64,000 nucleotides of DNA, taken from NCBI RefSeq assembly GCF_964020005.1, contig NZ_OZ026474.1:1-64000 (forward strand). The letters run 5' to 3'. Positions 31,935-35,723 of the stretch are shown here, in pieces. The notes beneath the pieces were generated by a model. The model made no database searches. It was not told the origin of the DNA and saw only the letters and a program-made list of their open reading frames with translations. The stretch's first letter is position 1; the number at the start of each line of letters is the position of its first letter. Source of the DNA: Spiroplasma endosymbiont of Atherix ibis (lineage in GTDB: Bacteria > Bacillota_I > Bacilli_A > Mycoplasmatales > Mycoplasmataceae). The position numbers were made by a program, and so were the translations under genes.

Positions 31935-33266
31935 ATGAAACTATATGATTCATTAATAAGTAATTTTAAGGAAATAGATTTATCTAAGGTTCTTATTTAT
32001 ACTTGTGGACCAACAGTTTATGATTATATTCATATTGGTAATGCAAGACCTCTAATCTTAACTGATATTATAATTAGATATTTAGAGAGTATGGATATAA
32101 AATATAAATATCTTTTAAATATTACAGATATTGATGACAAAATTATTAATAAATCGTTAGAAAAAAAAATTAGTGAAGAAGATTACTCTAAAAAATTTAC
32201 AAAAGCATTTTTAGAAGATCTTGATTTTTTAAATATAAAAAGGCCAACAGCAGTTGTACCTATATCTTCAAAAATAAATGAAATTTTATTTTTTATTGAT
32301 AATTTAGTAGAAAAGGGTTTTGCATATGAAAAATCAGGAAATGTTTATTTTGATATTAGTAAATGAGAAAATGATTATGGAGCTCTTTCAAATCAAAATA
32401 TTAAAAATTTAAATATAGGTGAAAAAATAAAAAAAGATGAAAATAAAAAAAATCCTCAAGATTTTATTTTATGAAAAAAAACTGAAATAGGTAAGAAGTG
32501 ATTATCTAAATGAGGGCTAGGAAGACCAGGATGACATACGGAGTGTGCAGTTTTAATTGATGACTTTTTTAAAACATCAATTAATATCCATGTTGGAGGA
32601 ATAGATTTGAAATTTCCTCATCATGAAAATGAAAGAATTCAATATATTGCCAAAAATTTAAGAGAGTTATCAGATGTTTGATTACATAATGGTCATTTAT
32701 CATTAGAAAATATTAAAATGTCAAAGTCTCTTAAAAATACTATTTTAGTTAGAGACTATGTAAAAGAAAATGGAAGTAATTCATTAAGATTTATATTTTT
32801 AAATTCTAATTATAAGCAGCCTTTAAATATTAATCAAGAATTAATTGATTATTCAAAAGAGTGAATATTAAAAATAGAATTTATGCTTAAAACAATTAAT
32901 TGATCAACAAGAGTAGGAGAATTAATTTTAACAAATAATACTCCAATCGATGATAATTTTAATTCATATAAATATCTTACAAAATTTAAGAAATTTCTTA
33001 ATGATGATTTAAATACTCCTTTAGTAATTTCTTTAATTGATGAAATGTGTAAAAGTATTAATAAACAAATTAAAAATAAAATGTTAGATTCTACTTATTT
33101 AAAATTAAAAACAATATTAAAAACTCTTGGTTTTTCTTTTGAAATTAAGGATTTATCAAATAAAGATATTGATAAGATTAAAAAATGAAGAGAAATGATA
33201 AGTAAAAAAAATTTTCAAAAAGCTGATAAATTGAGAAATGAACTTAAAGAGGAGAATATTATTTAA
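31935..33266 (+). CDS. cysS: Cysteinyl-tRNA synthetase
   Basis: Class I synthetase that charges tRNA-Cys. It encodes 443 residues with the zinc-site Cys in [17 protein letters not shown] (HIGN is the HIGH motif), [18 protein letters not shown] and IKMSKSLKN (KMSKS). Many Trp residues are TGA. The start ATG 31935 follows TGGAGGT. It precedes rlmB with a one-base overlap, reproducing the Bacillus cysS-rlmB-sigH-rpmG-secE-nusG order. Confidence 0.96.
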
Positions 33267-33985
33267 TGAAGAACTATATTTATGGTAAAAATGCAGTTGA
33301 GAATACTATTAAAAATTTTAGTTCTGAAATAAAACAAGTATTTATTTTAAAGGGTCATTCATTTGAGCCAGATATTTATAGCTTAATTAAAAAACAAAAA
33401 ATTGAATGAAAATCTTTAGAAAAGCAAGAGTTTGGTTTATTAATAAAAGAAGGTGTAAATCATCAAGGTTTAATAGCTCAAGTTATAGATTTCAAATATT
33501 TAGAAATGAAAGATTTTTATAATGACTCTAAATTAAATCAAACAGTTCTAATTTTAGATAAAATACAAGATCCACAAAATTTTGGATCAATAATTAGAAC
33601 AGCAAGTTTATTTGGAGTAGATGCAATTATAATTCAAGAAACTAATCAAGTTCAAATAACACCTGCAGTTATGAAAGCTTCAGCAGGAACAATTTATAAT
33701 GTACCGATTATTAAAGTTAGTAATTTAAAATCTGCAATAAACAATTTAAAAGATAGGGGATTTTGGATATACAGTTCTTATTTAGGAGAAAAAAGTATAT
33801 CTATAAGGGAAATTGATTTTGATAAAAAGTCAGTAATAATTATAGGGAATGAGGGCAAAGGAATTGGAAATAAAATCTTAGAATTATCAGATTTTATGTT
33901 TCAGATTGATACTAATAATGTAATTGATTCATTAAATGTTTCAGTAGCAACAGGGATTATCCTTTTTAAACTATTTAATAGGTAA
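33266..33985 (+). CDS. rlmB: 23S rRNA Gm2251-type 2'-O-methyltransferase (RlmB/TrmH family)
   Basis: SPOUT methyltransferase. It encodes 239 residues: an N-terminal substrate-binding domain (IYGKNAVENTIKN) and the SpoU domain with ILDKIQDPQNFGSIIRTASLFG, IIGNEGKGIG and IDSLNVSVATGIILF, the three family motifs. The start overlaps the cysS stop. The rRNA target is inferred from the family. Confidence 0.9.
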
Positions 33986-34007
33986 AATTTCGAAAGGAAA
34001 AAATAAA

Positions 34008-34436
34008 ATGAAAATTATAATAGCTGAAATTATAAAAAGTGAATTTCAAAATGATGTTACAGCAGATGTATTAATACATCTTCAAAGATCTACAATAAAA
34101 ATTATAAATACAGAACATCAAAAAATTAGTTATTTAAGATTAGATAAAGAAGATTTAATAACTAATGTTTATCTTGCAATTAAAGAAGTTAAACAAAAAT
34201 ATGATATTAATAAAAATGTTCCATTAGTAGCTTATGCTAATTTTATTATTAAACGAAGAATATTAGATTATGCAAAATTTTTAAAAAGAGATAAAAGAAA
34301 GTTGACACTTAAAATGATTAACTCTTATAGAAGCAGTTTAACAGAGGATGGACAAACTTTTTTAGAACGAGACATTGATCGTTATTATTACGAAAGCGAA
34401 AGAGAAAAAATTTTTTACAGTGTAAAGAAAAGTTAA
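34008..34436 (+). CDS. Sigma-70 region 2 protein in the sigH position, lacking region 4
   Basis: It encodes 142 residues. EDLITNVYLAIKEVKQKYDI and LVAYANFIIKRRILDYAKFLKRDKR resemble sigma region 2 of SigH. The position between rlmB and rpmG-secE-nusG is that of sigH in Bacillus. The protein ends at FYSVKKS; the roughly 60-residue region 4 that reads -35 elements is absent, and the 71 bp before rpmG cannot encode it. It may act as a reduced alternative sigma factor or a regulator. The start ATG 34008 follows GAAAGGAAA. Confidence 0.72.
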   Translation: MKIIIAEIIKSEFQNDVTADVLIHLQRSTIKIINTEHQKISYLRLDKEDLITNVYLAIKEVKQKYDINKNVPLVAYANFIIKRRILDYAKFLKRDKRKLTLKMINSYRSSLTEDGQTFLERDIDRYYYESEREKIFYSVKKS

Positions 34437-34475
34437 AAAAGGTTTTTAACTATTTTAATAAAGATATATCTAATA

Positions 34476-34481
34476 TATAAT
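34476..34481 (+). promoter_or_regulatory. -10 element upstream of rpmG
   Basis: TATAAT lies 26 bp before the rpmG start in the gap after the sigma-like gene. No convincing -35 is seen. Confidence 0.4.
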
Positions 34482-34507: not shown

Positions 34508-34669
34508 ATGCCCACAAAATCCAATAAAAAGGTTATACTTATTTGTAGTGAGTGCTTATCAAGAAATTATACTATTCAAAAAAGTACAATTTCTCAAAGA
34601 GAAAGATTACAAATAAAAAAACACTGTATAACATGTAATGCGCATGTAATTCATAAGGAGACAAGATAA
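34508..34669 (+). CDS. rpmG: 50S ribosomal protein L33, zinc-binding form
   Basis: It encodes 53 residues, [22 protein letters not shown], with two Cys pairs (CSEC and CITC), the zinc-ribbon form of L33. The start ATG 34508 is preceded by AAGAGTG. It stands before secE and nusG, as in Bacillus. Confidence 0.93.
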
Positions 34670-34670
34670 A

Positions 34671-35081
34671 ATGTCTAAAAATAATGATATTAAAGAGCAA
34701 AAAGCTCAGGAAAAATTAAAGAAAATTCAAGAAAAGCAAGCTCAAAAACAAAATAAAAAACAAAATAAACAAAATAAAAAAGAAGAGTTTAATAAGCTTT
34801 TCAATGAGTTTGAAGGACATGATGGAACTCAAGAAGGTAAGCTTAAAGCTGCAAAAAAGAAAAAAGTTAAAAAAGAAAAAAGCAAAATTAATTATAAATT
34901 AGCATTTAAAGAAGCACCGATTAAGTTTCTTAAAGAAGTTAATAAAATACAGTGATCTTCAAGAAAAAATTTGGGAACTAAATTTTTATGAGTTATAGTA
35001 TTTATTGCTATTTTTGGAGTGTTCTTTTTCTGTTTAGATTGAGCTTTCCAAGCTTTATTTGAAGTTATGAAAATTATTTAA
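34671..35081 (+). CDS. secE: Preprotein translocase subunit SecE
   Basis: Component of the SecYEG channel. It encodes 136 residues: a long Lys/Gln-rich cytosolic extension (about 1-85), the amphipathic segment around FKEAPIKFLKEVNKIQWSSRKN, and one transmembrane helix (FLWVIVFIAIFGVFFFCLDWAF). Three TGA codons in the second half are Trp, so a standard-code search loses the membrane segment. It starts one base after the rpmG stop and precedes nusG. Confidence 0.9.
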
Positions 35082-35093
35082 GAGGAGATTATC

Positions 35094-35723
35094 ATGGAAC
35101 AAAACTTATTTGAATTAGAAGATGAATTAGGCTCATACAAGGGACAATGGTTCGTCATTAACTGTAATAGTGGTCACGAAGATAGAGTAAGAGCAGATTT
35201 ACTTCAAAAAATTGAAACTTCTAGTTTAGAAGATAGAATATTTAATATTAGAATTTCAAAAGCACCTGTAATGGGAAAAAATAATAAAATTAATGAAAAA
35301 AATAAATTTCCTGGATATTTATTTATTAATATGAATATGACAGATGAGACATGATTTATAGTTAGAAATACTCCTGGAGTTACAGGATTTATTGGTTCTT
35401 CTGGTAAAGGTGCAAAACCATTACCTTTAACTATTGAAGAGGTTTCAAGAATGCTTGAACAAAGTGAAAATCAACAATCAAAAAATGATAAAACCTTAAA
35501 AGGTAATGCAAATCAACCTAAAAAAGAAAAAGTTTTATTTACAGCTGATTATGATATAAAAGATGTAGTTTTTGTTAAAGACGGACCTTTTGCAGTTACA
35601 GAAGGTCAAGTTATGGAAATGGATTTTGAAAAAGGAATTGCAATAGTTAATATTGAATTATTTGGAAGAATTACTCCAACTGAATTTGAATTTTTAAATT
35701 TAGAAAAAGCTTATAAAAATTAA
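35094..35723 (+). CDS. nusG: Transcription termination/antitermination factor NusG
   Basis: It binds RNA polymerase and modulates pausing and termination. It encodes 209 residues: the NGN domain (GQWFVINCNSGHEDRVRADL, FPGYLFINMNM, TPGVTGFIG) and a C-terminal KOW domain (VFVKDGPFAVTEGQVMEMDFEKGIAIVNIELFGR). The start ATG 35094 follows AAGAGGAGAT. It closes the rpmG-secE-nusG unit and a terminator follows. Confidence 0.95.

Follow-up and report, generated by a model that had tools for sequence, protein, structure and literature searches.

Between rlmB and rpmG, the window (i.e., the whole 64,000-nt stretch of DNA analysed here) carries a 142-aa ORF, translated with code 4, which lies 22 nt after rlmB and 71 nt ahead of rpmG and is preceded by a good Shine-Dalgarno sequence (Table 1). 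The gene order around it is cysS-rlmB-sigma ORF-rpmG-secE-nusG, where the name secE is presumed from position and sequence; we take rlmB-sigH-rpmG-secE-nusG to be the position of sigH in Bacillus as well. With nusG as a locus finder, which worked in 60/60 genomes of the family, the corresponding site could be followed across relatives.

Table 1. Features at and around the sigma locus, in positions of the 64,000-nt window
Feature	Position	Strand	Remark
cysS, next upstream of rlmB	31935..33266	+	
rlmB (SpoU-type rRNA methyltransferase), upstream neighbour	33266..33985	+	Pfam SpoU_methylase 1.7e-41
Shine-Dalgarno-like GAAAGGA	33992..33998	+	read from sequence
Truncated sigma ORF, 142 aa	34008..34436	+	residues 1-134 = conserved region 2 and linker
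Junction of the 142-bp deletion relative to G019	34405..34410	+	position ambiguous by ~6 nt
3' end of the ancestral sigma gene (end of region 4), surviving out of frame	34411..34480	+	
Ancestral stop TAA	34478-34480	+	
rpmG, downstream neighbour	34508..34669	+	
secE	34671..35081	+	
nusG	35094..35723	+	

The window protein, used as a query, retrieves relatives in 21 of 60 genomes, i.e., in all 20 of its own genus (g1) and in one elsewhere in the family, and a query with the alignment gives matches in 29 of the 60; as the gene is present in 20/20 genus genomes, the ORF is more than a product of chance. All 19 other genus genomes have the sigma gene at the same site. Open copies, found in 17 of the 20, encode about 200-212 aa with a C-terminal helix-turn-helix; reading of the loci and the alignment places this motif within the ~65-70 residues by which the relatives extend beyond the window protein. 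Three genus copies are broken: several stops interrupt that of G005 and one frameshift that of G010, the third being the window copy. The G010 gene (L009, reverse strand) is split by a one-base difference in an A run relative to the near-identical G004, which may reflect phase variation, an error in the reads, or incipient decay. In G075, a 320-aa transposase-like ORF sits within the broken sigma gene (L124, 2560-3522).

Across the family, the rlmB-rpmG site (surveyed with four loci lacking a found rlmB) holds an ORF of ~187-252 aa, or its remains, in g1, g3, g4, g6-g9, g11, and g12, the ORFs outside the genus being very divergent; g2, g5, and g10 have only a gap of ~86-109 bp and no sigma ORF. 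The 248-aa ORF at this site in G027 of g9 (L107, 3005-3751) has no match to a sigma profile. G079 (L057) and G028 (L059), without a sigma at the site, each give weak sigma-profile matches 4-7 kb from comEC, possibly representing a moved copy.

Relative to the nearest sister genome, G019, in which the sigma gene is full length (89.6% amino acid identity to the window copy over residues 1-134), the window gene differs by a single 142-bp gap, with 364/403 nt identical before it and 68/70 nt after it. At both edges of the gap, G019 has AGAG(A/G)AAA as a short, imperfect direct repeat. As 142 is not a multiple of three, the last eight residues of the window ORF are out of frame and end at the stop at 34436. 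The deletion took most of region 4, and the old frame continues to the ancestral TAA. An earlier note on this DNA had remarked that the ORF ends without a region 4, which is correct, and had suggested that such a factor could recognise -10 elements only. The latter claim is not supported by alignment with the genus neighbours: these carry region 4, which in the window genome was lost through an out-of-frame deletion and is still encoded past the break in damaged form, an outcome that the note itself had named as counting against it. A -10-only factor was dropped as the main reading once the relatives were compared. Judged from its sequence, the window gene is a damaged remnant, the recent casualty of a sigma factor kept by most relatives.

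Profile searches locate region 2 in the window copy and no region 4 encoded in frame. Pfam Sigma70_r2 matches residues 45-90 at 18.5 bits (E 0.0018), a signal that is weak when taken alone and lies under the cut-off of 24; the region 2-like core described in the earlier note is nonetheless real, and the same model matches 16/19 family members at E values up to 1 (best, 7.1e-7). The sigma70-ECF model (TIGR02937) covers only residues 37-101 of the window protein (21.0 bits) versus residues 39-182 of the full-length, 204-aa G019 protein (38.2 bits; cut-off, 42.9), a span that, together with region-4 matches of SigH models in g8, places region 4 in the intact relatives. In the window genome at large, the only clear Pfam region 2 belongs to the housekeeping sigma (742149-742976), and a second region-4-like match (855949-856047), directly after an FtsY-like end, is presumably YlxM.

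As to the type of sigma factor, NCBIfam SigI models match the window protein with E values down to 2.7e-7, SigI is the best NCBIfam match of most g1 members, and one SigI model (NF006175) matches 18/19 of them; these g1 matches reach ~30 bits against cut-offs of 185-498 and fall mainly in region 2. SigH models match three g8 members, chiefly over region 4, at up to 27.7 bits; this is the maximum for any member, and none attains the SigH equivalog cut-off of 208 bits or more. As a profile, eight divergent family members find the solved sigma-H factor 3mzy as their best match, over both regions 2 and 4 (E 3.2e-11), while a profile of g1 members only finds nothing below E 0.029 among the solved structures, with 3mzy at just E 0.62. 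Structure prediction for the window protein alone gave a mean pLDDT of 48.5. Gene position and profile match taken together favour SigH, and the best reading of these data is that the gene encodes a putative SigH-family alternative sigma factor sited between rlmB and rpmG throughout the genus. The earlier claim of a SigH-type sigma at the sigH position is thus sustained by the locus order and the 3mzy match.

Direct inspection, without a search pattern, revealed the tetranucleotide CGAT shortly before the recA start in 19/20 genus genomes (as strict CGATWW in 16/20) and before 11 of the 12 genus recU genes found. CGAT also lies near the ribosome-binding site of the ORF preceding comEC (the comEC operon) in 17/20 genus genomes, with the exceptions of G018 (TACGAATA, which we take to be the core of the streptococcal CIN box), G014 (ACGTTTA), and G012 (GCGAATT), and before recA in three g12 genomes. 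CGAT does not occur between -45 and -8 at any of 78 control gene starts, drawn from the window, a further 40 kb of its genome, and 40 kb of G019. The box was not seen before the recA or comE genes of g8; there, comE is preceded in three genomes by a common AAGGAAAAT and, after it, a TGATTATA-like element, an arrangement that resembles the -35 of SigH promoters. Upstream of the CGAT box, positions -17 to -13 hold a T-tract in promoters of the window's clade, and positions -23 to -18 a TGTACAA-like element in those of the other clade, as compared in sets of 43 and 27 promoters, both chosen for CGAT.

A CGAT-plus-ribosome-binding-site pattern searched across the genus gave 146 matches. It is not enriched genome-wide, and since a reversed control pattern outnumbers it in most genomes, the genome-wide count constitutes no evidence. 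Forty of the match regions, hand-picked for spacing and form, were read; 30 of these precede ruvA-ruvB (7), recU (4), recA (2), a gene for a 417-aa protein (8), a gene for a 508-aa protein (3), or a SocA/Panacea gene (6), two lie before a short ORF beside mraZ, and the remainder are isolated instances or evident false matches. (Lacking a usable Pfam match, RuvA is so called on our assumption, from its ruvB neighbour.) A CGAT promoter is shared by recA and ruvA-ruvB, genes that sigma-20 of Mycoplasma genitalium is reported to control, and may depend on the sigma factor described here.

The 417-aa protein behind the box, of no known Pfam family, is encoded at L190:243-1493 (G009), L193, L198, L201, L204, L205, L210, and L212, in most loci followed by a ~90-aa membrane-like protein; both are candidate new DNA-uptake or recombination genes. 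The 508-aa protein has a signal-like start and no Pfam match, with the box in three genomes (L189:3-1526 in G009, L195, and L199). The SocA/Panacea-domain gene, situated before pgk, has the box in six genomes (L197:988-1497 in G002, L200, L209, L211, L214, and L226), the domain scoring 25.9 bits against a cut-off of 25.7 where tested (G002). In G015 (L218, L222), each of the short proteins of 115-165 aa has a separate CGAT box, and three of these proteins are related and encoded one after another; in both G011 (L215) and G015 (L221) the box lies before a 103-aa ORF with mraZ immediately downstream.

Several of these genes are damaged in the window genome: recA is interrupted at alignment codon 172 by a nonsense change (E to stop), comEC and the ORF preceding it are frame-shifted (L080, G000:C1:620000-624000), and the 417-aa gene meets a stop after ~327 residues. 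Its recU was read only to the edge of the examined stretch, and ruvA and ruvB are absent from the 40 kb examined at a guessed site 40-75 kb before comEC; dprA, present in 20/20 genus genomes, is open. Within the genus, 18/20 genomes have comEC in one full-length frame; the two with a broken comEC, the window genome and G005, also have a broken sigma gene.

With intact and broken states assigned by the analyst's reading of the loci, and without correction for descent, (i) sigma and comEC in g1 plus g8 (34 genomes) are intact together in 23 and broken together in 9, with a single genome deviating in each direction (Fisher 1.8e-6), (ii) the same comparison in g1 alone gives 17 / 0 / 1 / 2 (Fisher 0.016), and (iii) that of sigma with recA gives 22 / 2 / 3 / 7 (Fisher 6.5e-4). 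Of the 14 g8 genomes, six have both sigma and comEC intact and seven have both broken or missing; in G070, comEC is broken and the sigma frame is almost open, with a short in-frame loss. G071, G072, and G074 were scored as sigma-broken because the 4.5 kb before nusG yielded no intact sigma. In an RlmB tree with 56 genomes, 7 changes are required for the sigma label and 5 for that of comEC; six descent-corrected pairs, from which G071, G072, and G074 are left out, comprise 4 changing the same way, 0 the opposite way, and 2 without difference (sign test p 0.125), so that, although recurrent, the joint loss does not reach significance after this correction. There are exceptions besides: G010 has a frame-shifted sigma with intact comEC and recA, G005 and G075 a broken sigma with intact recA, and G034 an open sigma with a stop in recA; g2, g5, and g10 mostly keep comEC without a sigma at the rlmB-rpmG site, and G024 and G029 have a sigma-like ORF and no full comEC. 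Of the two lines of evidence, the promoter box is stronger than the joint loss.

The factor might instead be a SigI-like general stress sigma, its disappearance alongside comEC and recA reflecting general genome decay only. The g8 losses do fall in the kind of genome in which RecA loss is known, and one study reports this loss throughout the Citri clade (PMC12453411). Protein change in rlmB and nusG is likewise raised in the window lineage, such that decay there may be general, and SigI models are, as detailed above, the best NCBIfam matches of most g1 members. Those matches, however, remain far below cut-off and mainly confined to region 2, whereas the widest profile matches sigma-H best, the gene occupies the sigH position, and CGAT precedes recombination and uptake genes and not other gene starts; we thus regard a SigI-like role with general decay as unlikely.

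The sigma deletion and the other breaks could also be faults of assembly, with the gene whole in the organism, given that the species is represented by one assembly and that some of the breaks are frameshifts in AT-rich sequence. However, neither a clean 142-bp deletion with repeats at its edges nor the single-base nonsense codon in recA is typical of read errors, the rlmB, nusG, dprA, and cinA-like ORFs are open in the same genome, and its stated completeness is 99.87%, all of which render this explanation very improbable.

Over residues 1-134, comparison of the window copy with that of G019 yields a dN/dS of 0.112; the window branch has 3 nonsynonymous and 7 synonymous changes and the sister branch 10 and 15, with no excess of amino acid changes seen on the window branch in this part, a pattern to be expected equally if the deletion is young or if the N-terminal part is still in use. 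That the truncated protein is a functional, region 2-only sigma reading -10 elements, for which one could cite the open 142-aa frame with its good ribosome-binding site and this unrelaxed N-terminal part, is very improbable, since region 4 is conserved in the intact relatives, the out-of-frame deletion left a visible 3' remnant, the window genome has broken copies of the predicted targets (recA, comEC, the pre-comEC ORF, and the 417-aa gene), and a recent deletion accounts equally for the low dN/dS.

We consider it probable, then, that the window gene is the remnant of a SigH-family factor, that its intact counterparts drive a recombination and DNA-uptake regulon in the manner of M. genitalium sigma-20 and the competence sigma factors SigH and ComX, and that this programme is dying in the window genome. 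In the intact relatives, the sigma would bind core RNA polymerase, its region 2 opening the CGATWW -10 element and its region 4 contacting a clade-specific -35; the link between sigma and box is inferred from comparative sequence evidence. It would thereby switch on recA, recU, ruvA-ruvB, the comEC operon, and a few genes of unknown function, i.e., a programme of DNA uptake and homologous recombination. The window copy would no longer be able to drive this programme, which would decay as a unit. With more reserve, and at only slightly better than even chances, we propose that a fast-evolving SigH-type sigma at a fixed site is the master switch of natural transformation in Spiroplasma, with a -10 that keeps its CGA core and a -35 rewired between clades (T-tract, TGTACAA-like, AAGGAAAAT-like), and that switch and targets repeatedly die together.

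What is of interest here is the likely role of the intact sigma in switching on DNA uptake and recombination; the window gene itself exemplifies only decay and should not be taken for a new type of sigma factor. Were the regulon correctly drawn, Spiroplasma, for which few genetic tools exist, would have or have had a dedicated DNA-uptake and recombination programme whose regulator is named and whose promoter box can be read, and which includes at least two new candidate genes of unknown family. A connection would also be drawn between the M. genitalium recombination sigma and the sigma factors for competence in other Firmicutes, and a marker gained for species that probably retain DNA uptake.

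Alternative sigma factors of mollicutes are described as mostly species-specific partial homologues (PMC5138195), and neither this sigma nor its regulon in Spiroplasma is described in the literature searched. In S. poulsonii, ruvA, ruvB, recR, recU, and comEC transcripts are reported to be higher in culture than in the host (PMC5874924). A close parallel is M. genitalium sigma-20 (MG428), also a mollicute alternative sigma, which is reported to control recA, ruvA, and ruvB (PMC9262362). The parallel is drawn from the described regulon; unlike that of MG428, the regulon predicted here includes DNA-uptake genes (comEC), and the window copy is broken. To the sporulation/heat factor SigI, the Spiroplasma sigma is akin through the best NCBIfam matches of its region 2, but these lie mainly in that region and far under cut-off, and the gene position also differs. 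SigH and ComX (SigX) have a role in competence. Relative to SigH of Bacillus and Staphylococcus and ComX of Streptococcus, the Spiroplasma factor is very divergent and under every SigH cut-off, most of its -10 boxes read CGATWW, and its mollicute hosts are without sporulation; with SigH of Bacillus and Staphylococcus it nonetheless has in common the sigma-H 3mzy profile match and what we take to be the same gene position.
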